The notes under the pieces were generated by a model, which saw nothing but the letters and a program-made list of their open reading frames with translations, did not search any database and was not told where the DNA came from. Below, piece by piece: positions 1,852 through 18,266 of a DNA stretch of 64,000 bases. The DNA comes from Chloroflexota bacterium (GTDB lineage: Bacteria; Chloroflexota; Anaerolineae; Anaerolineales; VGOW01), in assembly GCA_016197225.1 (NCBI GenBank), contig JACPWC010000031.1, positions 62,001 through 126,000 of the forward strand. The letters run 5' to 3'. Positions within the stretch are counted from its first letter, which is position 1; each line of letters opens with the position of its first letter. Made by a program: the position numbers and the translations under genes.

Positions 1852-1876
1852 CATTTTGACACTAAAAGGGACATGC

Positions 1877-3262
1877 ATGAAACTCTCGCCGCGCAACCGG
1901 ATGCTCATTAGACTCATCAGCCTGTGGGTCTTGCTGGCCCACGCGCTTGGTCTGTCCGGTTCGTCTCCTGTTGCGCGTGCGCAAACTGAAACTTCAACGT
2001 CTTCACTCGACCTAGTGCTGTTAATTGACAGCTCTACTAGCATGCTCGACAGCGACCGGGCCGGCCTGCGCGTGGACGCTGCTGTTTTCCTGCTGGAATT
2101 CATACAGGAGGTCGCCGGGGTGCAGGGCCTTTCAGTTCGTTTTGCGGCGGCGAACTTTGGCGGTGAAAGCGTGACGGATGCGGTTGCGCTGCGCCCCCTG
2201 CAAGGAGATGCCGCCCAGAACGCCATTCGCCTGCGTGCTGACAGCGAGTCCACCCTGTTTGCGCCGGCGCTCAATTTCGCCATTGATCAACTGCAAGACA
2301 CCGGAGACTCGCAGAAGGTGGTGATCCTCTTCACCGACGGCCTGCCCGAAGGCGAAGCGGTGACTCAGGCAGGGGCTTACTTTACGACTGAAATGAGTCC
2401 GCGCCTCGACTCTTTGCAACAATCGGGGGCGCAGGTTTTTGTCGTGGCTCTGCGCAACGACAAGACTGTTCAAGTCGAAGATTTGTGGATCCAGGCCATT
2501 TCCGCCGCCCGCTATCGTGTCATTGATCAGAATACAGACCTGGTCGGCGCTTTCCGCGATTTGTTCGCCGGCATCCTCGGCCTGCGCCCGGGCGAAGCGC
2601 AGACAGCCGCGCCCGGCGCTTCGCAAACAATCAAGTTGGAGCCTTACCTGGAACAGGCGGTGATCTCGGTTTTCAAGAGCGGTCCGTCTGTTTCACTGCG
2701 CCTGATCGATCCTAATCAGACTGAAATCCCTCCAACACGTCGCACCGATCAGCATGAGATTTTCGCCCTGACCGCTCCACAAGGCGGAGAATGGAAGCTG
2801 GGTGCGACTGGCGGTGCTGCCACCATTTGGGTGGATCGCCGCCTGCCCACGCTTACCCTCGAAGGGCCAACCGAACCGCAAGCGCTCGGCCAACCGCTAA
2901 CGTTCACCGGCCGATTGCTCCGTCTTAACCAGTCAATCAGCAAATCGTCTCTTGAACTTAGCTTGTCTATTGCAGGGCCTGAGAATCAACTCTTTCCGGC
3001 TCTGGTCATGGATCGTTTTGCAGATCGTTACTCGGCGGAATTTACCGGGGCGCTGGCAGAGGGCGTTTACACCGTGACCCTTTCGGCCCGTAGCGGCGGC
3101 GAGCCGGTTCTGGCCGAGTCAAGTGCTTTGACCGTTGGCGTTTTTCTCGTGCCATCCATCCGGGGGTTTGAGATTGCCGGGGACACGGTCGTGGGTCAAA
3201 CCATTTGCGTGTGTATAAGCAATTTCAACGGGCACGAAGCCAGTCAGAGGATTATAGGCTGA
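1877..3262 (+). CDS. Secreted von Willebrand factor A protein, 3' end broken
   Basis: The start is placed at ATG 1877 (MKLSPRN), which has AAAAGGG upstream; a TTG at 1856 is in frame but has no ribosome site. Residues 1-40 are a signal peptide or membrane anchor. A vWA domain follows with a MIDAS motif DSSTS at 51-55 and a later FTDG motif, so metal-dependent protein binding is expected. After about residue 240 come beta-rich, Ig-like segments. The reading frame then ends abruptly inside the last one, with an atypical tail of about 15 residues. Related vWA proteins usually continue into a membrane helix or further domains. The sequence becomes AT-richer at the same place, so the gene looks truncated by a recombination junction near 3190-3260. 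Confidence 0.75.
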   Translation: MKLSPRNRMLIRLISLWVLLAHALGLSGSSPVARAQTETSTSSLDLVLLIDSSTSMLDSDRAGLRVDAAVFLLEFIQEVAGVQGLSVRFAAANFGGESVTDAVALRPLQGDAAQNAIRLRADSESTLFAPALNFAIDQLQDTGDSQKVVILFTDGLPEGEAVTQAGAYFTTEMSPRLDSLQQSGAQVFVVALRNDKTVQVEDLWIQAISAARYRVIDQNTDLVGAFRDLFAGILGLRPGEAQTAAPGASQTIKLEPYLEQAVISVFKSGPSVSLRLIDPNQTEIPPTRRTDQHEIFALTAPQGGEWKLGATGGAATIWVDRRLPTLTLEGPTEPQALGQPLTFTGRLLRLNQSISKSSLELSLSIAGPENQLFPALVMDRFADRYSAEFTGALAEGVYTVTLSARSGGEPVLAESSALTVGVFLVPSIRGFEIAGDTVVGQTICVCISNFNGHEASQRIIG

Positions 3263-3648
3263 AGTACGAAAGCGAACAGATAGAGCGAACCAAATTAGAA
3301 GGACTCAAAGCCATATTTGACGACGAAGCGCGGAAACAATTTGAAAAATACCGGCAAGCCAAAGACGAAATTCAAAAGGGGCTACAAGAGTCCAAAACTC
3401 CTGAAGAAATATCAAATCAAACAGATAGGTTGATTGAGTCTGCCGCGAAAGTCAGCGAACGGGTCGAAGAGACTCTAACGGCTGAGGTCGGGCAAACAAT
3501 CAAGGATGCATGCTTGGCTTTAAGAGAAAAGGATCTGCGCAAGACCTTATCAAGGAGATTTACGATGAGGTTTTGCTGTGGGGAAACAACATCGGGATTC
3601 TTGAACATCTATCAAAACATGACCACTATCCAATTTCGTCAATCATAG
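3205..3648 (+). CDS. Coiled-coil segment, likely broken 5' part of the next gene
   Basis: This frame opens after a stop at 3169-3171 and its only early starts are TTG 3205 or GTG 3211, neither with a ribosome site. Residues 5-100 are strongly helical and charged (for example RTKLEGLKAIFDDEARKQF), a convincing coiled coil, but from about 3510 on the translation loses protein-like character while the +3 frame becomes convincing. Together with the truncated vWA gene upstream this suggests a 5'-truncated reading frame that continues into the NTPase at 3510 by a frameshift, rather than an independent gene. An alternative is a genuine small gene overlapping the NTPase by 139 bases. Confidence 0.4.
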   Translation: MRVYKQFQRARSQSEDYRLKYESEQIERTKLEGLKAIFDDEARKQFEKYRQAKDEIQKGLQESKTPEEISNQTDRLIESAAKVSERVEETLTAEVGQTIKDACLALREKDLRKTLSRRFTMRFCCGETTSGFLNIYQNMTTIQFRQS

Positions 3649-5561
3649 AGATGGTAAGCGCCGCTTACCGCAACCCCGGCTTGGAGGCATACCAAAATGT
3701 TTATTTGGCAAGTGGCTGGCTCACGAATCTACCTGAAGAGCAGAACAGCTTGCGTAAAGTATACGAATTGCTGATTAACTTGGAGAAAGAAGCCAACGTC
3801 CGGGAAAAGGCTATTCAACTCATAGCCGAAACCTACAACAAACTTGACAAAGCGGCTATCCCTTCTAGTCTCAGGGTTCTCGTTGAAAAGGCTCATCAAT
3901 GTCTGGAGCAAAACACAAGCAAAGTCGAGGCGGTAGACGCGCTCCGGGCCGCTCTTCTTGAGGAAGATAAAGAGAATAATAGCACGCTTAACAATCTACC
4001 CGAGGCGAGCGCGCTCCTGGATTACTTCAAGCGACTTGAGAAACGTCAGGATGCAAAAATAACCAAACCACTCGAATTGGCAATTTCGACCAGATCCACA
4101 TTAGATATATCGTATAGCGATGAAAGAATCTCCGCCTCTGACGGAACCTATTCCTTGAGGTTATCAGTGCTCATCGAAAACAGGGATGACACATATGCGG
4201 CCAACGACTTGGTGATTCGGGACAACGGCCCTCTAATACCGCCCATTTTCAGGTTTGGTGGCAACGAAGAAAAGCGAGAGATAAAGTTGAGTGCTATCAA
4301 ACCTGGGGGAATGCTGGTTGGAAAGATCATTTACAAGTATGAAACAGATCAGGATCCAACCTGCCAACTTGTCACCAACTATGACTCGACTCCTCGGACT
4401 TTGATCGCGCCTGAGAAAACTATTGATGTGCCTTCTGAAAAATATCCTGTCCCCGAGCCCTATAAGTATGATTCGGTAGCCAAAAAGGTTAGCGAAGGTG
4501 GGGTCGTATTCCTGAAAGGCCCACCGTTTTCGGGGCGCACAAGAATTCTGGAAGCGATAAAGGAAGTCAAAGATGCACGAATTCACCGCTTGGGACGAAA
4601 AACCAGTCGTCAACACAGTGGCGATGAAGAGATCAAATCCTTACTGGGCTCAATACGGGATGCTAAGGGTCCAGGGGCAGTTTTAATCGACAATGCTGAG
4701 GTGTTGGAGGAAGAAGACGAGAATAACAAGGATGCTTTTATCTTGTATTTGTCGCGAGCAGTGCGAGAAGGGTGCATTGTCGTTATTGCGCAGGGCATCA
4801 ACGACACCTGGGATCGACCCATTAGAAACGCTCTGCCGGGCGCACTCGAGCGCGTGTCTTTCGAGTCAATATACGTTGGGCCTTGCAACGAAGGAGAGTG
4901 TCTTCAGTGGGTAGCTAAATATTTGCCCCGGGAAATGTCAACATTGGCGCGGAAATCAATGTGGCTCTTCTCCGGCGGCAGTCTTGGGGTGCTGGATGAA
5001 CTCTGCAGTGCCTTGAAGGACTCGCCCGAAAAAATATATACCGATCGTGTCAAAGATGTGCTGGTAGACGTAGCCCTTGAGTGTGGTCAAGCATGGTGTA
5101 ACGATGGTGTGCTTACGCCCATTGACCAACGGCTACTATCCGTGCTTGCAGGTGACGATTTTACCGACCAGAATAGTTGGACTACTGGCTTAAGTCGGCA
5201 GGATATTGCAGATAGCTCTCAATTCTCATTGGTTAATTCTCAGAGTTTGTGGCTAGAGGGTGGTTTATTGAACAAGCTTGCCTTGCAGTACCCGGATCAT
5301 TTTTCGCACACCGACAACACTCGCCATGAATACGTCCGAAAAATTACCGATCGACTGGAGCGACTTTGGCAACTAGGCGTATTTTGGTATGGAGAACAGT
5401 CGGAAAACAGGCAATACTCTACTAAGCCCAGGCGTGTATTTTGGCGGATGGGGTGGTTATATGTGTTCGCGCGTAGCATATATAAGATGCCGTTTGAGTC
5501 TGAGATTGAGGCGCGAAAATCCGGCGCTGGCAATACTAATGAGGTGGCTGATGAAATCTAA
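3510..5561 (+). CDS. STAND-like NTPase with beta-sandwich domain
   Basis: 683 residues from ATG 3510 (AAGGA lies 3 bases upstream; the true N-terminus may lie in the preceding frame). Residues 1-185 are helical; 185-305 form alternating beta strands like an Ig/CARDB-type sandwich; then a P-loop GPPFSGRT at 337-344 and a Walker B-like stretch LIDNAE near 392-397. The part after 480 is helical with a likely winged-helix region, as in STAND/NACHT-type signalling NTPases. No membrane segment is seen. It overlaps the protease gene by 11 bases (ATGAAATCTAA), implying translational coupling. It probably senses a signal and switches on the partner NTPase-protease, by analogy with STAND systems. Base use is AT-richer than the flanking housekeeping genes. 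Confidence 0.7.
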   Translation: MLGFKRKGSAQDLIKEIYDEVLLWGNNIGILEHLSKHDHYPISSIIEMVSAAYRNPGLEAYQNVYLASGWLTNLPEEQNSLRKVYELLINLEKEANVREKAIQLIAETYNKLDKAAIPSSLRVLVEKAHQCLEQNTSKVEAVDALRAALLEEDKENNSTLNNLPEASALLDYFKRLEKRQDAKITKPLELAISTRSTLDISYSDERISASDGTYSLRLSVLIENRDDTYAANDLVIRDNGPLIPPIFRFGGNEEKREIKLSAIKPGGMLVGKIIYKYETDQDPTCQLVTNYDSTPRTLIAPEKTIDVPSEKYPVPEPYKYDSVAKKVSEGGVVFLKGPPFSGRTRILEAIKEVKDARIHRLGRKTSRQHSGDEEIKSLLGSIRDAKGPGAVLIDNAEVLEEEDENNKDAFILYLSRAVREGCIVVIAQGINDTWDRPIRNALPGALERVSFESIYVGPCNEGECLQWVAKYLPREMSTLARKSMWLFSGGSLGVLDELCSALKDSPEKIYTDRVKDVLVDVALECGQAWCNDGVLTPIDQRLLSVLAGDDFTDQNSWTTGLSRQDIADSSQFSLVNSQSLWLEGGLLNKLALQYPDHFSHTDNTRHEYVRKITDRLERLWQLGVFWYGEQSENRQYSTKPRRVFWRMGWLYVFARSIYKMPFESEIEARKSGAGNTNEVADEI

Positions 5562-7242
5562 TATGTGGACGCTAAACGACTGCGAATGGGAATTTATCGG
5601 AGCACACAAAAATGGTTCGCGCTGTTCGCCAGTTGATGTTATTGTGGAGAAGCTGAAAAAGGATAACGACAAGACCCATTTTCACTTAATCGGATGCCCT
5701 TATATTGGCAAGTCATCTGTTGTCAGTTATGCTCTGACAAAAGTCAACCAAGAGAGCGGAACCGCTGGCCAGATAGGACTCACATGTGCTAAGAAGTGGT
5801 TGTTCTTTTACTTTGAAGAGCCTTCTGGGAAAGATGTCGACATTGTTGAAATTGCGAAGAGGAACCTTGTAGAATGGTGGTGTGACAATTTGGGCTCTGA
5901 AGAATACCAAAGCCTATGTAGCGACTTTGCTGCTAAGAATTGGGAGGGCGCGTTCGACTACAATAATCCTGGTTCTCCATGGTACCGATTTTTGATGAAT
6001 GCTCGCGAGCACAAACTGGTGTTTCTTTTCGAAATTAGTAATCAGAGCTCGTTTAACAATGTTATTAATCTTATCAATGGAACAAAGCTATTCAAAGAAA
6101 AGGTTAAGGATGGTACATGGCGGATTATTATCGAGACTCCCCTTGAGGTAAAGCTCAACCCAAGCGTTCTGCAAACCCGACAAATATCGATTGGCTTGCT
6201 TGATGAAGCAGAGGCCAGGGGTGTTGCTAATGTTGCTAGCACGCTTGTAAAAACTAAAGATGAGACTTCTCCCGACGATGCCACCAAGATCAAGATCGCG
6301 GAGGAGATTCTTAGATGGGCTGGATATCATCCCTATTTGTTGCGTTTAGTGTGCAAAGCTTTCAAGCGCTGGCCGTCGGAATACCACTTCATTGGTATAG
6401 AGGCCCAGTTGCTTAAATATGATGAAGAGCATAACGGGATACTCGGCGATATTGCAAAGAGGCTCGTTGATCAATGCCCAATCGGGACGAACTCTGAACT
6501 GATGCCTAGTGGAAAGACGGCAGAGGTTCTTAGGATATTTCCATCGTCTGAAAATGCTCAAAAGGCCTATATTCAAGCAAAACAAAAGCGAATGTTGGTT
6601 GCTGTGTATGATAAGGACAATAATCAAGAAGGAAATGGTCTCCTTATACACCGAGACGGCAAATGGTATGTCGCCACTTGCAAACATATTACTGACAAGA
6701 TTTTTGGGGCAGATGCGTCTCCGTCGAAAGACAAACTCATCAATATCAAATACAGATGGCCGCCTGATGAGATTGAGTACATTGACCTTGTTGCAGCTTT
6801 CGTCTATGTACACGCGGAGCATGACATTGCTATCCTGGCATGTACGGATCACAACATTTTTTCTGTGTTGCATGAGGATCTGTTGGCTAAAATACCCCGC
6901 ACAATTCTGACTTATGGAATGCCATTGGACATCAGATATCACTGGGAAACATTGTTTCACCACAATCAGGTCAAGTTTAAAGAGGGCGACGAAAATCTTA
7001 TCTATCAGAATGCAAACACGGATAATGGTTCCAGCGGGGCAGGTGTCTTCTGTGATGATGGGCTTGTTGGCATGCACTGGAGAGGCCCCGATCCGAGCAT
7101 GGGCCAAAAACCTGAGATTGCAACACCACCAGCCGAGAAAAACGCAATTGCTAAAATGGAAGGAGATGCACTTAGTGCGAAACTGATTTTGAAGCATCTT
7201 GATAAGCATCTTGATAAGCATCGTGCTACAGAAACTCGATAA
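5551..7242 (+). CDS. P-loop NTPase fused to trypsin-like serine protease
   Basis: Start ATG 5551 has GAGG 6 bases upstream and overlaps the preceding stop; 563 residues. The N-terminal half is a P-loop NTPase with GCPYIGKS at 48-55 and helical STAND-like sequence to about 340. The C-terminal domain (about 355-555) is a chymotrypsin-fold protease with a complete triad: His379 (ATCKH), Asp425 (EHDIAIL) and Ser495 (NGSSGAG, the GxSG motif). No signal peptide is present, so the protease should be cytoplasmic and probably held inactive until the NTPase part is triggered. The C-terminus ends in a short tandem KHLDKHLDKH encoded by 12-base repeats. Neighbouring NTPase and Trypco1-like genes support a conflict or programmed-death role, which is inference. 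Confidence 0.85.
   Translation: MKSNMWTLNDCEWEFIGAHKNGSRCSPVDVIVEKLKKDNDKTHFHLIGCPYIGKSSVVSYALTKVNQESGTAGQIGLTCAKKWLFFYFEEPSGKDVDIVEIAKRNLVEWWCDNLGSEEYQSLCSDFAAKNWEGAFDYNNPGSPWYRFLMNAREHKLVFLFEISNQSSFNNVINLINGTKLFKEKVKDGTWRIIIETPLEVKLNPSVLQTRQISIGLLDEAEARGVANVASTLVKTKDETSPDDATKIKIAEEILRWAGYHPYLLRLVCKAFKRWPSEYHFIGIEAQLLKYDEEHNGILGDIAKRLVDQCPIGTNSELMPSGKTAEVLRIFPSSENAQKAYIQAKQKRMLVAVYDKDNNQEGNGLLIHRDGKWYVATCKHITDKIFGADASPSKDKLINIKYRWPPDEIEYIDLVAAFVYVHAEHDIAILACTDHNIFSVLHEDLLAKIPRTILTYGMPLDIRYHWETLFHHNQVKFKEGDENLIYQNANTDNGSSGAGVFCDDGLVGMHWRGPDPSMGQKPEIATPPAEKNAIAKMEGDALSAKLILKHLDKHLDKHRATETR
7191..7221 (+). repeat. 12-base tandem repeat at 3' end of protease gene
   Basis: The unit AAGCATCTTGAT is present twice, followed by a partial third copy (AAGCATC). 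It is in frame and encodes KHLDKHLDKH near the C-terminus of the NTPase-protease. Slippage here would lengthen or shorten the tail by four residues without a frameshift. Confidence 0.85.
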
Positions 7243-7267
7243 AGCCAATTGTCTTACGGAGGTCGCT

Positions 7268-7621
7268 ATGCCTATGCTTGAATACAAATCAGGTGATGGA
7301 AATTCAATCTGGATTGAGGTGCCCCAACAGACATACTCTGTGCTTCAGTCGCGAAGCAATGAACCCCCGCCACCTCAACCACTAAAACCTGGTTTTTTAG
7401 ATGTAGTCAAAACCAACATCATCATTTTGCGCGAAAAAATTGATGAACTCGATCTGTTCCAGCGCCCTCGAGAAGTAGAGGTCGAGTTGAGTCTGAAATT
7501 CAATGCCGAAGCCGGAGTTTGGGGGCTGGCTGCGACCGGGGTGGAGTCGGGCTATGTTGTCAAGCTCAAGTGGGTTCATGAGGCCGAAAAACCGAAACTT
7601 GGTGACAAGCCAAAATCTTAG
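7268..7621 (+). CDS. Trypco1-like (trypsin-co-occurring domain) small protein
   Basis: ATG 7268 is preceded by GGAGG and gives 117 residues (MPMLEYKSGDGNSIWIEV); the longer frame from 7199 lacks a ribosome site and overlaps the protease gene. The protein is mostly beta: an N-terminal IWIEV strand, a Pro-rich linker, then a C-terminal segment VEVELSLKFNAEAGVWGL followed by a KLKWVHE strand. This matches my knowledge of Trypco1 (the CU044_2847-type family), small domains found beside trypsin-like peptidases in bacterial conflict loci. Its position 25 bases after a trypsin-like protease fits exactly. It may regulate, recruit or be cleaved by the protease; the biochemical role is not known to me. 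Confidence 0.75.
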   Translation: MPMLEYKSGDGNSIWIEVPQQTYSVLQSRSNEPPPPQPLKPGFLDVVKTNIIILREKIDELDLFQRPREVEVELSLKFNAEAGVWGLAATGVESGYVVKLKWVHEAEKPKLGDKPKS

Positions 7622-7627
7622 AGATTG

Positions 7628-8344
7628 ATGTTAGGCCTGCTTCTCCACCTGTTCATTGCCGGGCTAACCGCCTTAGGCTCAATCGTTGCCGGGCGTGGCA
7701 CCTCTTACAGAACCCGCCATGTCTTGGCGCATTTGCCTGGCATTTGGGGGGTAGTTGGGGCCTATTTGCTGCTTAGTTGGGTTGAACTGGCGCCGTGGGA
7801 GTTCCTCAACAGCGGTCTGCTCGACGGCTTGATGGGCGGATTGTTCGATGTCTTTCCGATTCTCTCCTTCATTATCAATAGCCGATGGATCGCATGGTTA
7901 GGGCCTGTCTTTAACACGCTGAGCCTGCTTGCCAACCTCAATGGTTTGCTGGCGGTGATGTTTGAACTCAATTTGGATTTTGCCCAACGTTTCATGCTGA
8001 TTTTGCCAGGGTTGGTTGCGCTCGCGTCACTCGTAGCGAGCATTACAGCGGCCTTCCTTCCGGTAGCATGGCGCAGCCGGCTTGGCTTCGCTCAAACCAT
8101 TTCTGCGGGCATGGCGCTGTTAGGGCTAATCTTCAATCTCAACGCCCTGGATGCTTGGGGCAGTCGTGGCCGGCTCGCCACCGGTCTGGTTGCTCTGCTC
8201 ACAAACGCCCAGGTTGGCATTGGCCCGTACTTCGCGATGTTAGGGTTGATTGGCTTGATGGTGTCTGGCCTCTGGCAAGCATCTCACTCGTCATCCGAAT
8301 CATCAGATGGTTCGGCAGGATTTAGCAGCGACTTATTTGAGTAA
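7628..8344 (+). CDS. Polytopic membrane protein of unknown function
   Basis: 238 residues from ATG 7628, 6 bases after the Trypco1-like gene, so almost certainly in the same operon. Hydropathy by eye gives about six membrane helices (for example LLLHLFIAGLTALGSIVAG at the N-terminus) with a Ser-rich cytoplasmic or external tail (SHSSSESSDGS). No family motif is recognised. Base use is somewhat GC-richer than the NTPase genes. As part of the island it could be the membrane target or effector of the protease system, or a separate passenger; nothing in the sequence decides this. Confidence 0.75.
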   Translation: MLGLLLHLFIAGLTALGSIVAGRGTSYRTRHVLAHLPGIWGVVGAYLLLSWVELAPWEFLNSGLLDGLMGGLFDVFPILSFIINSRWIAWLGPVFNTLSLLANLNGLLAVMFELNLDFAQRFMLILPGLVALASLVASITAAFLPVAWRSRLGFAQTISAGMALLGLIFNLNALDAWGSRGRLATGLVALLTNAQVGIGPYFAMLGLIGLMVSGLWQASHSSSESSDGSAGFSSDLFE

Positions 8345-8367: not shown

Positions 8368-9048
8368 ATGTCAGAGCCTGATTTTTCACCACCCCCCCGT
8401 TCAATTACACCTGGCCCAATCGAATTGGGATTGGCGGGCGTCAGCTTGCCGATCGTGATCGGCTTTCTAGGGCCGTGGGTTAGCCCACAATCCCCTACTT
8501 TTTATACAGAAAATCTCGGCTGGATGGATGGTTCGCTAGTGGCGCTGTTTCGGCCACTTTTAGAAGCACTGGGGTGTGTGACCGGCTGTAACTTCAGCAC
8601 GCTTATCAGCGCTTCGCCGTGGAGTGCTGTTGCCGCCGCACTGGCGCGCGGCGAGAGCCTGTTCGCCTGGCAATTCCTCATCGGGACGTTCCCTGTTACG
8701 CTGTGGTTATGGTCATTAGCTTTGTCTTATCCGTTGGCAGTGCTGCTGGTCCTGGTTCGGATAGTCATACACCGACACTCATTTGCCCGACTCTTGGATG
8801 CCTTCCTGGCTGGGGTATCGGGCGTCAGCCTGTTGCTCAGTATCTTTCAGTTCCACGCCCTCGACACTCTCGGATACTCCTCAGATTTTGTGTTGTGCCT
8901 GATTGCTACACTGGCAGGCAGTCATCAGGGTTGGGGGATAATGCTTGGATTTCTTGGACACTCAACTCTGGCAACTATAGCCATTATCGGCCTGGTGAGA
9001 GGAGGGCTTTCCCGCCAAAGCGGGATAGAAGCTCTTGACGAAATTTAA
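8368..9048 (+). CDS. Second polytopic membrane protein of unknown function
   Basis: 226 residues with a Pro-rich N-terminus (DFSPPPRSITPGP) and about five to six hydrophobic helices. It lies 23 bases after the previous membrane protein, has no strong ribosome site and is similar in size and style, so the pair may be distant paralogues or two subunits of one membrane complex. A conserved-looking Cys pair (CVTGC) sits in the loop around residues 71-75. I do not recognise a family. Confidence 0.7.
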   Translation: MSEPDFSPPPRSITPGPIELGLAGVSLPIVIGFLGPWVSPQSPTFYTENLGWMDGSLVALFRPLLEALGCVTGCNFSTLISASPWSAVAAALARGESLFAWQFLIGTFPVTLWLWSLALSYPLAVLLVLVRIVIHRHSFARLLDAFLAGVSGVSLLLSIFQFHALDTLGYSSDFVLCLIATLAGSHQGWGIMLGFLGHSTLATIAIIGLVRGGLSRQSGIEALDEI

Positions 9049-9143: not shown

Positions 9144-10727
9144 ATGGCTCTCACTAAATTTATTGGGTTAGACCTTGGGAATACTTATGCCCGCCTGGCA
9201 TATACCTCTGGTATGGCAGGTATTCAGAAACCAGAGGACTTGACACCACCTCAATTGCAGGTTTTCGGGGTGCATTCTCGCACATATGTTGAATCGATCG
9301 CAAGAATAGACACTATGCCTCCGCAAACTGTGGATAGCGAGGAAGTTATTCGCTTAATAGAGGCCACGTCTGACATATTGCTCTGCGATCGCCCAATGTT
9401 AGGTGTTGAACAGCACGATTTGAATTCCCAACGGTCGATTACGGCAATTGGCGCAACGCTTGCGGAGCGCTTGCGAACACATTTTCGCGTCGTTGGTAAG
9501 CTTTCCAATGCATTCCAAATTTCGGCTGGAATTCCTGCAAACTGGCCAGCAAATAGCCAGGAAGCGCAATTGCTAGCAGCAAGTTTAAGCAGTGGATTCG
9601 GCCAAGTAATGCTTTATCCAGACGCGCTGGCAGCAGTCTTGTGTATGTTATACAAGGAAAATATACAATTATTAGATCAATCACAATCATGGCTTGTGAT
9701 GGATGTGGGTGGGGCAACTACACGCTTGACAATGGTGCATAAACCTCTTGGGGATGCCAACTTGGAAATTAAGAAATCGCTCTCATTAGTTTGGGGAGGC
9801 AATCACCTTGATGAACAACTTTATCGTGATTGGTGGCTTCCGGCTTATTGGAAAGATGCAAATGAACCTGATCCAAATCGCCGCAAGGCAATTTTATTGC
9901 TCCTAAAGGAGTTAAAAGAAAGCTTGTCAAAAACACGCAACACTGTACATTCTGACTTTCATCGTTTGGGCCTTGAAGAACCAATTCAATTGTCAACACA
10001 GATTTTTGAAGGCGTGTGTCGACCAGCTATTCAGGAGTTTTACGCTTTGCTTGAATCGAATCCGGTAATCGAGTTGGAGAAAGAACCTATTGAGCGCGTT
10101 GTTTTGATAGGTGGAAGCGCCCACTGGCCGTTTGTTTTGGAAGCTACTCAACAAAAATGGGGTCGCGATAAAGTTTTTCTCCCAGATCAACCCGATTTGG
10201 CCGTGGTCTTCGGCCTGTCTTTAGCCCAAAGTGGTTTTAAGCCGCCACTTACAAGGGTAAGCGAATCTGCCGTGAAAATTGAAAACACGACAGATATTGG
10301 CACAGTGCCTTCGAAAGAGGATGGTAAACCGCCACCTCTTTTGCCTCCCCCAGTTCCGCCAGAGACGTTAAGGCAAGATAGGCGCGCCAAAGCCAGGAAA
10401 ACAATCCGGCTTATGGTGCTTATCGGGGTTGGGGTTGCATTGGCACTGGTCTGGTTGCCTTTTGGGTCATGGCCATTTCTCATGGCAATTGAAGTTTATA
10501 TGATGCTTGAAATTGCGAAGAGCTATGGCTACAAATATACGGATGGTTTGATTATCCTACTTGTCATCGGGCTACTGGCCTTGTCTATTGGCCTTTCGAC
10601 CGCGCTTGCTCCTTTCACGGAGACGCTGTTTTGTTTGGTTAAACCGGTGATTGCCGGGCTTGTCATCTGGGGCATGGGTGAAGGCACCATTGCGATCCTT
10701 GATTGGGATTCAACCCGGCAACATTAA
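9144..10727 (+). CDS. Hsp70/actin-fold ATPase with C-terminal membrane domain
   Basis: 527 residues; ATG 9144 has AGGA 10 bases upstream. The ASKHA (Hsp70-actin-hexokinase) signatures are in order: phosphate 1 GLDLGNTYARLAY near 8-20, phosphate 2 VMDVGGATTR near 186, and the adenosine motif VLIGGSAHWP near 319. Unlike DnaK there is no beta-sandwich substrate domain. Instead a Pro-rich linker (PPPLLPPPVPPE) leads to three or four hydrophobic helices after residue 420, one carrying the motif YGYKYTDG, recalling DUF697-type membrane domains. The product is probably a membrane-anchored ATPase. It is followed 30 bases later by the HerA-like gene, so the two likely work together. Confidence 0.75.
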   Translation: MALTKFIGLDLGNTYARLAYTSGMAGIQKPEDLTPPQLQVFGVHSRTYVESIARIDTMPPQTVDSEEVIRLIEATSDILLCDRPMLGVEQHDLNSQRSITAIGATLAERLRTHFRVVGKLSNAFQISAGIPANWPANSQEAQLLAASLSSGFGQVMLYPDALAAVLCMLYKENIQLLDQSQSWLVMDVGGATTRLTMVHKPLGDANLEIKKSLSLVWGGNHLDEQLYRDWWLPAYWKDANEPDPNRRKAILLLLKELKESLSKTRNTVHSDFHRLGLEEPIQLSTQIFEGVCRPAIQEFYALLESNPVIELEKEPIERVVLIGGSAHWPFVLEATQQKWGRDKVFLPDQPDLAVVFGLSLAQSGFKPPLTRVSESAVKIENTTDIGTVPSKEDGKPPPLLPPPVPPETLRQDRRAKARKTIRLMVLIGVGVALALVWLPFGSWPFLMAIEVYMMLEIAKSYGYKYTDGLIILLVIGLLALSIGLSTALAPFTETLFCLVKPVIAGLVIWGMGEGTIAILDWDSTRQH

Positions 10728-10757
10728 ACCATGTCATTGGAAATAGGAGGCAGCACG

Positions 10758-13700
10758 ATGGCCGCAGATTCTGAAGAAACGACCTTCGCCCTTCAAACCT
10801 TAACCCCTGAAGCGGTTGATGAGCTTGTAAACCGGCGTTTACCGGCCTCCCTATTAGACACGCTGGAGCGGCGTTGGTACGAGAGCTTTGACATTCATAA
10901 ATATCAGATTCAGTCTACTACACCGGCAGCTTTGGAAGCAGAAACACGATTTTTGCAGATTTTTGAGGTTGCATATACTCAAGATGTAGCTCGTAGTTTC
11001 CACTTGGCAAACATGCAGAATGTTTTAAGTAGCCTGCGCGACGGGAGCCATTCGCTTGCTTATGTCGCTACAAGTAATGGGGAGCAGGTTAAACTGTTGA
11101 TGGGGGTACGGCGCTCTCGTCTGGATTCGATCACCCCAACAGACGAGTATATCAATGTTATGCACCGGGCTTTACGAAGCAATTATCCGGGGATTGTTTT
11201 GAGCCAGCAGGCGGACGAACAGTACCACGATGTCGATTTTGCCGATTATAAAGTGTGTATCCTTGACCCAATGCAAAAGAGTCATTACCTTGCTGCTATC
11301 ACTGGCATTCCGTCCTTGCGCCAACAGGAAAACTGGCAAGAAGCGTTTGGCCAAAGCATTGATCGGCTAGTAGATGCATTACGTGGGGAGGCCTATACAT
11401 TGCTGGTGTTGGCTGAGCCCATTTTGGAAGAGCGCGTGAATCACTTGATTAATCAGGCACGCTTAATTAGCGAACAAGTTCACGCACTTGTGCTTCAATC
11501 GCGTTCAATTTCCCGGAGCGAGACCGCGTCAAAACAAACCACTAGAGGGAAATCGGAACAATTTACTTTAGGGACTTCCCAGTTGATCTCAGCAATTTTG
11601 TCGGTGTCTGGAAGTGTCAGCAAATCTATATCCGACACGATTGGCTTCACGCGAGGCGTAAGCGCCTCGATAACGCAGGAAAGACTCGATAAAACGGCGC
11701 AGTTTTGCGAGCAGCTTTTAGAGCATTATATTAATCGACTGCAATCGGGACGAAGCTTGGGATTTTGGAACACGGGCGTCTTTCTGACAAGTGATGACCG
11801 AAATACGTTTTTGCGCGCTCAGTGGATTTCAAGAGCGCTTTTTTCTGGGCAGAACACTTATTTCGAACCTATTCGCATATTAAACTTAGAAAAGAATCTC
11901 GAAGTACGCAGAGCTCTCGGTAATTTGCGAATACCCGCCTTGAAAGCCATACCGGGCGAAAACCGTCAATCCATTGAACATCCGTTAGGCCAGGAATATC
12001 AAAGTCTGGGGACACCGCTAACTACCGACGAGTTATCAATACTGGTCAGTTTCCCAAACCGAGAAGTTCCAGGCTTGAAGTTGAAGCCAGTGGCAGATTT
12101 TAATCTCAATCCCCCCGCTATCAAGGGTACGGAGATTGGCTCATTGCTATATCGTGGAGAAAAGCTCCCATCACGGATCGCCATTTCTTCCAAAAGCTTG
12201 ACCCGGCACACATTCGTCACCGGCTTGACCGGCTCGGGGAAGACAAACACATGTCTGGCGTTGCTCGCAAATGGCCACCAAAGTCAACAACTGAAGTTCT
12301 TAGTTATCGATCCTGCCAAGACGGAATATCGCCTCTTATTGAACTCTCGAAGCCTTGGTAAAGATCTAGTGGTTTTCACGTTAAATGATGAATCGCTTGC
12401 ACCTTTTCGTCTCAATCCATTTGAGTTTGAACCAGATTTCCCGCTATTAACACATATAGACTTGTTGAAGGCGGTCTTCAATGCTGCGTTTCCAATGTAT
12501 GCCTCCATGCCTTATCTGCTGGAGGAAGCCATGTTGGCTGTTTACCAAGAGCGCGGGTGGAATATCACGGACTCGACCAATGATCGCTTCAAGCCAAACT
12601 CTGGCGAGGATCATCGCACCTATCTACCTAGACTGAGCGATTTGCGCGACAAGATTGATGAGGTCGTCAAAGGTAAGGGCTATGACGAGCGCATAGCTCG
12701 TGATCTTACAGCAGCGCTCAAGGCTCGCATTGGCAGTCTGTGTCAGGGCACCAAGGGTCTGATGTTGGACACTCAACGCTCGACACCGTTTCAGGCGCTG
12801 CTTGATCGCCCGGTCGTGCTAGAGTTGCGCCGAGTTGGAGACGACGACGAGAAGGCTTTTCTGATGGCGTTGCTATTTATTCGGCTATACGAAGCTTGTC
12901 AGACCCGAAAGATTAGCAACGATCTATGCCATGTGACCCTTATTGAAGAAGCGCACCGGCTTCTCCGGAACGTACCTATTTTAGTCTCATCCGAAATTGC
13001 CAACACCCGGGGCAAAGCGGTGGAAATGTTCGCTGATATGATGGCTGAGATGCGCGCTTACGGGGAAGGGTTTATCATAGTAGATCAGGTACCAAACAAA
13101 CTGGTCCCAGATGTGATTAAGGGATCTAATTTGAAGTTTGTACACCGTCTCTTAGCTGATGATGATCGACGTGCTGTTGGCAACGCCATGGGATTGACGT
13201 CGGCCCAAATTGAACATTTGTCCCGCCTCACCTTAGGTCAGGCGGTTGTACATAGCGAAGAACTAGGTGAGGCGTGTCTCGTTAAAATCGATTCAGTCGA
13301 GGAGCAGCTTATGAATCAACCATCAGGATCAGATCCACATGATAAATCGCACAAGACTGAGGACTTGCTTAGGCAGCACGCCAAAGATTTCGAAGATCAA
13401 CAGCCGCAGCCGAATGCCACCTCAAAACTGATAGCGTCAGAGCCGGAAGAACATAGACTGGAGAGCCGTTCAACGTCAGTCCCGGCCGTGTCGTCTTCGT
13501 TCGGGCCTGGCCATCTCCCATTTCCGTACTGTGTTGGTTGCCTTCCGCTTTGGAAAACAGGGCGTTGTTTATATGGCAAGCAGATCAATGCTTTGCGTTC
13601 TGCCAAAGCATGGCGAGAAAAATTCGAGGCACCAATGATCCAAGTCCTTGAAACCAGCGATGACCCTAATGATCTATGGTTACGCCTCGGCCAACTCGGA

Positions 13701-13880
13701 ACACAGTTAATCATCAACAACGAAATTCCTCTAGGTGAAGGTCAAGCCGAGGATGTAGTCTACTGTAACTTAGTCCACATAACAGTGGCCATTGGACATC
13801 ATCCCGCCGCACGATGGCGTCAGCGACTGGGCAACTACGTCAACATGCTTAGCAGTTTCCACCGGTCGTATCCTGAATGA
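10758..13880 (+). CDS. HerA/VirB4-type ATPase (DUF87-like)
   Basis: The start is set at ATG 10758, preceded by AGGAGG at 10745-10750; an upstream ATG at 10731 has no such site. 1040 residues. Residues 1-450 form an unrecognised helical region. The ATPase core carries Walker A GLTGSGKT at 489-496, a VIDPAK segment and Walker B VTLIEEAH near 726-733, typical of HerA/FtsK-clade hexameric translocases. The last 170 residues include a Cys cluster (YCVGC then C after 8 residues) and no known domain. HerA-type pumps move DNA or protein and commonly pair with nucleases or other effectors in defence loci. No nuclease is recognisable next door, so the effector may be in the N-terminal region or in the two following genes. 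Confidence 0.85.
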   Translation: MAADSEETTFALQTLTPEAVDELVNRRLPASLLDTLERRWYESFDIHKYQIQSTTPAALEAETRFLQIFEVAYTQDVARSFHLANMQNVLSSLRDGSHSLAYVATSNGEQVKLLMGVRRSRLDSITPTDEYINVMHRALRSNYPGIVLSQQADEQYHDVDFADYKVCILDPMQKSHYLAAITGIPSLRQQENWQEAFGQSIDRLVDALRGEAYTLLVLAEPILEERVNHLINQARLISEQVHALVLQSRSISRSETASKQTTRGKSEQFTLGTSQLISAILSVSGSVSKSISDTIGFTRGVSASITQERLDKTAQFCEQLLEHYINRLQSGRSLGFWNTGVFLTSDDRNTFLRAQWISRALFSGQNTYFEPIRILNLEKNLEVRRALGNLRIPALKAIPGENRQSIEHPLGQEYQSLGTPLTTDELSILVSFPNREVPGLKLKPVADFNLNPPAIKGTEIGSLLYRGEKLPSRIAISSKSLTRHTFVTGLTGSGKTNTCLALLANGHQSQQLKFLVIDPAKTEYRLLLNSRSLGKDLVVFTLNDESLAPFRLNPFEFEPDFPLLTHIDLLKAVFNAAFPMYASMPYLLEEAMLAVYQERGWNITDSTNDRFKPNSGEDHRTYLPRLSDLRDKIDEVVKGKGYDERIARDLTAALKARIGSLCQGTKGLMLDTQRSTPFQALLDRPVVLELRRVGDDDEKAFLMALLFIRLYEACQTRKISNDLCHVTLIEEAHRLLRNVPILVSSEIANTRGKAVEMFADMMAEMRAYGEGFIIVDQVPNKLVPDVIKGSNLKFVHRLLADDDRRAVGNAMGLTSAQIEHLSRLTLGQAVVHSEELGEACLVKIDSVEEQLMNQPSGSDPHDKSHKTEDLLRQHAKDFEDQQPQPNATSKLIASEPEEHRLESRSTSVPAVSSSFGPGHLPFPYCVGCLPLWKTGRCLYGKQINALRSAKAWREKFEAPMIQVLETSDDPNDLWLRLGQLGTQLIINNEIPLGEGQAEDVVYCNLVHITVAIGHHPAARWRQRLGNYVNMLSSFHRSYPE

Positions 13881-13898: not shown

Positions 13899-14648
13899 AT
13901 GGAAATGGATTTTGCTGCCTTTGATGCTGGATTCGATGCCGGGGATTTTTACGTCGGCGATGTGTATGATGTTGGCTACGACACGGGCCTAGACAACGGT
14001 TTCGACACAGATATCGATTATGATGCCGATTTGCTATCCTATAAGTGGGACATTGATGATGGGCAGTATGATGTGGGTGATTACGATGTTGGTGACGTAA
14101 ACATAGCTGACTATGACGTCGACCGGGGGGATGGCTCCGTTGGTGGCTATGGTAGCTTGACAGACCAAGTTGTTGTTGACGACTCAAAAGAGTCGGAATG
14201 GGAGAAAATTGATGTTGATGAGGTGCGGGATATGCTAGGCCGAGATAGTCTGTGGGAAGAAACGCCTTTTAATCGCGGTCGCGACTTTGAGGAACTTGAG
14301 GAGGCAAACATTGGAGGAAACTTCCCTACCATCGATGACATCGACTCTGATACTGGGACAGCTACGAGTCTCAAGACACTGGATGTTACCGCTGAAACAT
14401 ACGAAGATACCGGTAAAATGGAAAGCAAAGTGGAGTCATATATCGATGATCTGAGCGACTTTGATGACACTATTTGGCACCAGAATGGAGAGGAAATCGC
14501 TGTGTCACGTGACGACATTGACCAGCTTGCGCTAGTGTTAGGCATACCGGCAGGCAAGGCTTCAAACGAGCAAGTCGAGTCGCTGCTGAAACTTGAAGAA
14601 TATGCATCGAGCAAAGGTGTTCAACTTGTTATTAAGGAGATCCCGTAG
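13899..14648 (+). CDS. Asp/Gly/Tyr-rich acidic protein
   Basis: 249 residues, 18 bases after the HerA-like gene. The first 85 residues are extremely acidic and repetitive, with degenerate units such as YDVGD and FDAGD, few hydrophobic residues other than Val and Tyr, and no signal peptide. The middle is acidic and disordered-looking; the last 50 residues (for example DDIDQLALVLGIPAG) look like a folded helical domain. I know no family. The charge resembles DNA-mimic or calcium-binding proteins, but no canonical EF-hand or RTX nonapeptide is present. The gene is embedded in the island operon and could be an inhibitor, sensor or substrate of the HerA ATPase. Confidence 0.75.
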   Translation: MEMDFAAFDAGFDAGDFYVGDVYDVGYDTGLDNGFDTDIDYDADLLSYKWDIDDGQYDVGDYDVGDVNIADYDVDRGDGSVGGYGSLTDQVVVDDSKESEWEKIDVDEVRDMLGRDSLWEETPFNRGRDFEELEEANIGGNFPTIDDIDSDTGTATSLKTLDVTAETYEDTGKMESKVESYIDDLSDFDDTIWHQNGEEIAVSRDDIDQLALVLGIPAGKASNEQVESLLKLEEYASSKGVQLVIKEIP

Positions 14649-17201: not shown

Positions 17202-18266
17202 ATGAGCGTCGAATTTGTTTTCAGAATTATTGGAATGTTTGCTCTGGGCATCGGCGGCGGCTTTCTCGGCTTTTCGGTGGCCGAATTTTTTGGCTTGTCG
17301 CGCGACTTCTGGGCAGTGGTGTTCGCCGCAGTGGGAGCGTTAACCGGGCTGGTGGCGACTCCCTATCTGACCACCCGCCCGGCTCGCTGGCTGCGCAACC
17401 AGATCGGGTTGTTGCCGACACGAGTGCTGGTGGCCGGGATGGCCGGGTTGATTGTGGGCCTGGGCGTTGCGGCGCTGGTGTCGGTGCCGCTCTCTTTGCT
17501 TCCCGCGCCTCTGGGCCGCGTTTTGCCTTTTGTGGCCGTGCTGTTGTTTAGCTGGTTGAGCATTTCAGTTTTTGTGATGCGCCAGCACGACATCTTTACC
17601 CTCTTCCGTGACCGCCTGCCAGCCCAACACAACGAAGAAGACGCCGCCGGCGGAACACCCTCCGCAGGGGCGGCCAGCATTTTGCTCGACACCAGCGTGA
17701 TCATTGACGGGCGCATCGCCGACGTGAGCCAGACCGGCTTCATCTCCGCCCCGATGCTGGTGCCGCGCTTCATTCTCAATGAGCTTCAGCACATCGCCGA
17801 TTCGTCGGACGTGTTGCGCCGCAATCGCGGGCGGCGCGGGCTGGACATCCTCAACCGCCTGCAAAAAGAATCAGTCGTGCCGGTGCGCATCACCGACATG
17901 AACGTGGAAGGTGTACGCGAAGCCGACGACAAGCTGGTCATCCTGGCCAAGCAACTCCACAGCGCCATCCTCACCACCGATTACAATCTCAACAAAGTCG
18001 CCGGCATCCAGGGCGTCACCGTCCTCAACATCAACGACCTGGCCAACGCCGTCAAAGCCGTCGTCCTGCCCGGCGAAAGTATGACGGTGAAAGTGATTCA
18101 GGAAGGCAAAGAGCAGGGGCAGGGCGTGGGCTACCTGGATGACGGCACGATGGTGGTGGTGGAAGACGGTCGCCGCCTCATGAACCAGAATGTAGACCTC
18201 ATCGTCACCAAAGTCTTGCAAACCGCCGCCGGGCGGATGATTTTTGCCAAGCCGGATCGTTCGTAA
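17202..18266 (+). CDS. Membrane PIN/TRAM-domain protein (YacL family)
   Basis: 354 residues: four membrane helices within 1-125, a PIN-like nuclease domain from about 162 (LLDTSVIIDGRIADV, then Asp-rich motifs including EADDKL and LTTDYNL), and a C-terminal TRAM domain from about 285 (GESMTVKVIQEGKEQGQGVGYLDDG is the RNA-binding barrel region). This order is that of Bacillus YacL and relatives, membrane-tethered predicted RNases. In many bacteria the gene neighbours radA or the isoprenoid ispD/ispF genes; here it lies between radA and cysS. ATG 17202 is preceded by AGGCGGG. Its upstream terminator suggests attenuation. Confidence 0.92.
   Translation: MSVEFVFRIIGMFALGIGGGFLGFSVAEFFGLSRDFWAVVFAAVGALTGLVATPYLTTRPARWLRNQIGLLPTRVLVAGMAGLIVGLGVAALVSVPLSLLPAPLGRVLPFVAVLLFSWLSISVFVMRQHDIFTLFRDRLPAQHNEEDAAGGTPSAGAASILLDTSVIIDGRIADVSQTGFISAPMLVPRFILNELQHIADSSDVLRRNRGRRGLDILNRLQKESVVPVRITDMNVEGVREADDKLVILAKQLHSAILTTDYNLNKVAGIQGVTVLNINDLANAVKAVVLPGESMTVKVIQEGKEQGQGVGYLDDGTMVVVEDGRRLMNQNVDLIVTKVLQTAAGRMIFAKPDRS

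Follow-up and report, generated by a model that had tools for sequence, protein, structure and literature searches.

Gene organization of the locus

The analyzed window, a stretch of 64,000 nt from a Chloroflexota bacterium to whose positions all coordinates refer, carries on its forward strand three adjacent genes of the same direction, encoding in 5' to 3' order NTP1, NTP2-trypsin, and a Trypco1 protein (Table 1). The first two share a stretch of 11 bp, NTP1 ending at 5561 and NTP2-trypsin beginning at 5551, which bears out the overlap described in an initial reading of the letters (the sequence-only reading). The start assigned to NTP1 in that reading, 3486, is merely the first codon past a stop, the start codon being the ATG at 3510. 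NTP2-trypsin reads 563 aa from its ATG, with a GAGG six bases 5' of it, and shows at its end an in-frame direct repeat, HLDKHLDKH (window 7190-7235). Trypco1 begins 26 bp past the stop of NTP2-trypsin, thus being the direct neighbor of the trypsin gene; its start is likely the ATG at 7268 following GGAGG and not the TTG at 7199. Neither a signal peptide nor a hydrophobic signal or transmembrane (TM) segment was found in NTP1, NTP2, or Trypco1, so that the earlier description of a trypsin protein devoid of a signal peptide stands and extends to TM segments. Promoter and terminator scans gave signals at or below shuffle expectation.

Table 1. Features of the trio and its neighbors, given as positions in the window.
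Feature	Position	Strand	Basis and remarks
Secreted vWA protein with an apparent truncation at the left block edge (~3208)	1856..3262	+	PF00092, composition
Coiled-coil ORF without early ATG, overlapping the NTP1 start	3205..3648	+	GC3 0.44 vs 0.63 before 3208
NTP1, 683 aa	3510..5561	+	ORF; aa 1-180 helical, ~190-290 beta-rich and Ig-like, AAA/STAND-like region
NTP1 P-loop-like motif GPPFSGRT (Arg for Lys), aa 337-344	4518..4541	+	Motif scan
NTP2-trypsin, 563 aa	5551..7242	+	P-loop NTPase-like N-terminal region, trypsin-like peptidase C-terminal
NTP2 Walker A GCPYIGKS, aa 48-55	5692..5715	+	Motif scan
Trypsin_2-like domain, NTP2 aa 361-506	6631..7068	+	PF13365 below cut-off, alignment, shuffle control
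Catalytic codon His379 (NTP2)	6685-6687	+	
Catalytic codon Asp425 (NTP2)	6823-6825	+	
Catalytic codon Ser495 (NTP2)	7033-7035	+	
Trypco1 protein, 117 aa	7268..7621	+	PF19493, alignment; Shine-Dalgarno GGAGG 7258-7262
TM1, multi-pass membrane protein	7628..8344	+	ORF, TM prediction; candidate substrate/effector
TM2, multi-pass membrane protein	8368..9048	+	ORF, TM prediction; candidate substrate/effector
Hsp70-like ATPase, three C-terminal TM segments	9144..10727	+	PF00012; neighboring Hsp70-HerA module
HerA/FtsK-type ATPase	10731..13880	+	PF01935; neighboring module
Nuclease, CDI-toxin EC869-like REase domain	13899..14648	+	PF21111, E 5.1e-15; candidate pro-effector

Trypsin-like domain and NTPase regions

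The C-terminal part of NTP2-trypsin matched PF13365 with an E-value of 1.4e-4 and 23.1 bits in the protein scan, remaining below the curated cut-off of 27.6, which was not reached in a six-frame search either (26.5 bits). With a profile built from 27 Chloroflexota trypsin domains, NTP2 scored 26.6 bits vs 9.3 bits for the top of 2000 shuffled sequences, H379, D425, and S495 aligning in order on the catalytic columns of the profile and the serine being embedded in a GxSG-like context (GSSGAG). Profile alignment and shuffle control thereby confirm the trypsin-like domain with these three catalytic residues that the sequence-only reading had put forward. That the domain might turn out to be a secreted housekeeping protease, the case named there as refuting, did not prove true, the HtrA-like trypsins of this genome being separate genes.

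The Walker A motif of NTP2, GCPYIGKS, is preceded by a hydrophobic strand; in the shuffle control, GxxxxGK[ST] occurred in 1.8% and together with a preceding strand in 0.3% of cases. The motif of NTP1 lies in a classical AAA-like setting but contains Arg in place of the Walker A Lys, and its P-loop is therefore probably degenerate. Two working P-loop NTPases, as proposed, are not supported, the motif being intact in NTP2 alone. No NTPase family matched either protein in Pfam, NCBIfam, PADLOC, or PHROGs, and no STAND, NACHT, or nSTAND family did so in the first three. Likewise, hhalign comparison of both NTPases with STAND profiles from neighboring Trypco1-trypsin proteins remained at or near shuffle level. 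NTP2 aa 248-279 (GYHPYLLRLVC stretch) locally and weakly resembles a protein that has nSTAND1/ATPase_2 matches, which is suggestive only. As family scans and profile comparisons gave no significant match, the STAND-like character of the NTPases can be considered a lead only, and the membership as originally stated is not supported. The Ig-like stretch of NTP1 is plausible by eye, as the sequence-only reading had seen it, but matched no profile. In sum, the profile search proposed there placed Trypco1 above its cut-off, whereas the trypsin domain fell below and the NTPases were left without a family. Paralogy of NTP1 and NTP2 was not detectable. PDB sequence searches returned noise only, and single-sequence AF2 models (mean pLDDT 35-36) were too poor to be used for a fold search.

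Trypco1 and its relatives in Chloroflexota

The small protein, noted earlier as resembling Trypco1, is a true member of this family, matching PF19493 with an E-value of 4.3e-10 and 40.5 bits (curated cut-off 24.6) and aligning with 15 relatives in a 16-sequence alignment. Trypco1 is present in 32 of 400 Chloroflexota genomes, and a second copy in the same genome (contig C2) adjoins an N-terminal trypsin-TPR protein. The neighborhoods of 36 Chloroflexota Trypco1 genes were inspected, 18 of which have a trypsin ORF no more than 600 bp away. All 18 place trypsin at the N-terminus of its protein, and in all 16 loci with both genes on one strand the trypsin gene follows Trypco1 directly on the 3' side; several loci are close relatives, so that fewer cases are independent. 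Fusion partners of these trypsins comprise nSTAND1-WD40, NACHT, TPR, NACHT-/nSTAND1-FGE, SAVED, TIR, and kinase, trypsin-STAND fusions 3' of Trypco1 being recurrent in the phylum. This set of domains corresponds to the toolkit named by Kaur 2020, where Trypco1 and trypsin neighbors count among the established components of predicted conflict systems (PMC7159879). The statement that Trypco domains and STAND-trypsin fusions occur in predicted conflict loci is hence borne out by the literature as well as by the Chloroflexota loci.

The trio in the window reverses both features, with the trypsin domain at the C-terminus and Trypco1 3' of the trypsin gene. In both arrangements, Trypco1 adjoins the gene part encoding the trypsin domain. 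Because both positions are reversed, yet this adjacency is retained, the comparison suggests that the partner of Trypco1 is the protease domain itself. In the literature covered, Trypco1 is known from neighborhood alone; the reversed trio represents a small system for testing its partnership with the protease.

Distribution of the NTPases

Homologues of NTP2 were absent from 400 Chloroflexota genomes, 201 genomes of the same order yielding only matches with E > 0.01 that were judged as chance, and NTP1 had none in 301 Chloroflexota genomes. Consequently, the neighborhood survey of NTPase homologues in this phylum, as proposed by the sequence-only reading, found no homologue of either protein. 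Scans for both NTPases in GTDB contigs (peptide patterns) and plasmids (tblastn), as well as for NTP2 in viral contigs and phages (the latter by tblastn), revealed nothing real. As the pattern-based collection scans demand exact 8-residue matches, their negative outcome argues only weakly against distant relatives outside Chloroflexota. Weak matches to NTP2 aa 189-298 were dropped, being arginyl-tRNA synthetase-like on reading the sequences. Among the genomes searched, the trio is seen in a single one.

Comparison with known systems

The closest likeness is provided by the Trypco1-trypsin modules (Kaur 2020, PMC7159879; loci L092, L098, L100, L102, L105, and L106), in which Trypco1 also stands beside a cytoplasmic trypsin, often NTPase-fused as in NTP2. 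They differ by an N-terminal trypsin and a Trypco1 gene located 5', where the window has a C-terminal trypsin and Trypco1 3'. Furthermore, the window adds another NTPase, which is degenerate and contains an Ig-like stretch, and neither NTPase significantly matched a known STAND family.

In the experimentally studied CARD-NLR/LypABC system, the Walker motifs are degenerate in the trypsin-bearing ATPase, which acts jointly with an intact NLR-like ATPase, and the trypsin domain is essential (PMC13236601). The trio shares the paired ATPases, one trypsin-fused and one with degenerate Walker motifs, but in the window it is the trypsin-bearing ATPase that has the intact Walker A motif and its partner that is degenerate. 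In addition, trypsin is on the opposite side of the ATPase, and the window has Trypco1 and no LypC-like second protease. No CARD matched NTP2, whose NTPase region starts at its very N-terminus (P-loop at aa 48); judged by sequence alone, a CARD may lie within the helical N-terminus of NTP1.

AVAST type 1 and nuclease-protease Hachiman likewise have a trypsin fused to a defense enzyme and a nuclease gene nearby, and it was shown experimentally that the trypsin domain (HamA-fused in Hachiman) activates a pro-nuclease (PMC12799240). In contrast, the window has NTP1 and no MBL-fold nuclease directly upstream, its trypsin is C-terminal (aa 361-506), and its nuclease is REase-like and ~6.7 kb downstream. 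The GAP1-N2 tubulin/HSP70 systems of Kaur 2020 resemble the surrounding cluster, in which genes for tubulin-like, extracellular vWA, kinase, and Hsp70 proteins occur, the tubulin and HSP70 themes being non-overlapping in those systems (PMC7159879). GAP1 and GTPase genes gave no match among the cluster proteins scanned, a result that very divergent versions could escape, and the MoxR/AAA_5 component of the VMAP/iSTAND MoxR-vWA ternary system had none among the cluster proteins either. As a defining feature of each was looked for and not found, the trio is not a VMAP/iSTAND, CARD-NLR, or GAP1-N2 system nor an AVAST/Hachiman pair. Its arrangement, the reverse of that in known relatives, is unusual for a type of system that was already predicted in 2020.

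Surrounding cluster and a possible insertion site

The trio sits inside a ~33-kb one-strand cluster beside radA. It is preceded by an upstream vWA gene, two tubulin-like genes, a kinase, coiled-coils, a phosphoesterase, and a second vWA gene, and followed by two membrane proteins (TM1 being distantly similar to TM2), an Hsp70-like ATPase, a HerA-type ATPase, and a REase-like nuclease, whose N-terminus is strongly acidic and D/G/Y-rich. The left part (C31 ~42.8 kb to window 3262; L138, L008, L041) includes a TM coiled coil and a 1503-aa coiled coil, and an ORF 5' of the cluster (L138:4863-5729) was recognized by eye as an IS3-family-like transposase. Next to radA lies a gene for a PIN-TRAM domain protein whose N-terminus includes a membrane region (window 17202-18266).

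The GC3 of the trio (0.45-0.51) is foreign to that of core genes (0.75-0.80). As it also differs from the left (MPE/vWA, 0.63-0.66) and right (TM1/TM2, 0.56-0.63) neighbors, the trio represents a block in a mosaic, Hsp70, HerA, and nuclease ranging from 0.43 to 0.50. At ~3210, overall GC drops from 58% to 45%, where the vWA gene abruptly ends. The coiled-coil ORF at this edge has probably been left over from the 3' part of a disrupted gene; the broken vWA gene itself may reflect a real truncation or an assembly error, both of which fit. Repeats marking an integration site were not evident at the block edges. Two congeners match this genome in radA and to the right of it, whereas nothing is shared on its left, so that the site beside radA is variable; the region left of radA (window 15546) is a candidate insertion hotspot. 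The reversed architecture, the distinct composition of the block, the truncated vWA gene, the large cluster, and the nuclease as a candidate substrate all go beyond the sequence-only reading.

In the order, Hsp70 and HerA recur as a pair of their own, and neither Trypco1 nor a relative of NTP1 or NTP2 was present in the ~20 HerA loci inspected. G484, a genome from another family, hosts relatives of the tubulin-kinase pair and of the Hsp70-HerA pair on different contigs, the former pair being found in G468 too.

A predicted ATP-gated protease switch

Taken together, there is in our judgment an even chance that the trio was acquired horizontally and encodes an ATP-gated protease switch acting in the cytoplasm, in line with the general type that Trypco1-trypsin conflict systems are predicted to represent. 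An infection cue would trigger the nucleotide-dependent assembly of NTP1 and NTP2. In this assembly NTP1, with its degenerate Walker A motif, helical N-terminus, and Ig-like stretch, would most likely be the non-hydrolysing partner of NTP2, acting as sensor or adaptor, while NTP2 would be the assembling ATPase bringing its own trypsin domains together and thereby activating them. The trypsin domains would then cleave a partner protein, leading to the cell being stopped or killed (abortive defense), with the REase-like nuclease, TM1, and TM2 as first cleavage candidates. Trypco1 would serve as a regulator bound to the protease or as a presenter, holding or offering either the protease or its substrate. 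We infer the NTP1-NTP2 partnership, the trigger, the substrate, and the outcome, and this applies likewise to the roles of sensor and executioner assigned by the sequence-only reading.

Of the features directly seen (gene order, an intact and a degenerate Walker A motif, foreign composition, the gene overlap, the triad, Trypco1 membership, and the absent export signal), the last four support the switch. It gains further support from the repeated adjacency of Chloroflexota Trypco1 to trypsin fusions, from the location of a low-GC block at a variable site by radA, and from CARD-NLR/LypABC and AVAST/Hachiman as experimental precedents for NTPase-controlled trypsins. Against it counts that a conserved NTP1-NTP2 association cannot be shown from a trio present in one genome, that family scans and profile comparisons gave no significant sign of a STAND identity, and that no recognized sensor domain or experimentally known effector was found beside the trio. 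Moreover, TM1, TM2, and the nuclease may not be substrates, because their composition differs or because they belong to a neighboring module.

We consider it unlikely that the trio is a regulatory protease remodeling the surrounding tubulin/kinase/vWA/Hsp70/HerA membrane apparatus and not a stand-alone defense. The genes from the upstream vWA (C31 ~42.8 kb) through the nuclease do lie on one strand with short gaps, and the presence of both tubulin-kinase and Hsp70-HerA relatives in G484 suggests one larger system, but the GC3 of the trio departs from that of MPE/vWA and TM1/TM2, and the inspected HerA loci have neither Trypco1 nor NTP1/NTP2 relatives. A decaying insertion appears less likely still; in this reading, what is left of a conflict module disrupted the vWA gene and now loses its function. 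The broken vWA gene, its ORF stopping abruptly at the composition change and being followed by the out-of-frame coiled-coil ORF, and the degenerate NTP1 P-loop (Lys to Arg) also fit decay, as does the divergent trypsin; yet the frames of NTP1, NTP2, and Trypco1 are long and intact, Shine-Dalgarno-like sites precede NTP2 and Trypco1, and the catalytic triad is complete. It appears very unlikely that the trypsin domain binds peptides without cleaving them, given its retained His, Asp, and Ser and GSSGAG context, despite its divergent sequence, its C-terminal position, and the report that nearly all effector-position trypsins fused to the VMAP vWA component are inactive (Kaur 2020, PMC7159879).

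The protease switch can be extended to a bolder joint reading, to which we assign little probability. Here, a pseudo-ATPase with an Ig-like sensor would control a hitherto unseen NTPase family with a C-terminal protease, Trypco1 would follow the protease domain whatever the gene order, and the module would be swappable cargo in the vWA gene of a tubulin-Hsp70-HerA membrane system, firing the nuclease or membrane proteins of the latter. If true, this would be a new type of two-ATPase protease switch. Already in its simpler form, the trio is a further candidate for the expanding group of bacterial protease switches whose logic resembles that of animal inflammasomes, the claim on Trypco1 and the switch being drawn from the sequence of a single genome.

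Small proteins at other HerA loci

The small gene 3' of HerA in other loci was not detectably of the same family as the nuclease in the window. Small proteins encoded next to HerA (L111 G484:C535, L122 G401:C98, and L126 G438:C23) share an N-terminal tag, L[ST]PxGxAAIQG. The enzymatic domains behind this tag differ by eye, being C39/AvrRpt2-like peptidase, SprT-like, ParB-like, and REase-like, and the proteins could form a polymorphic set of effectors that share one leader directed to the HerA ATPase.
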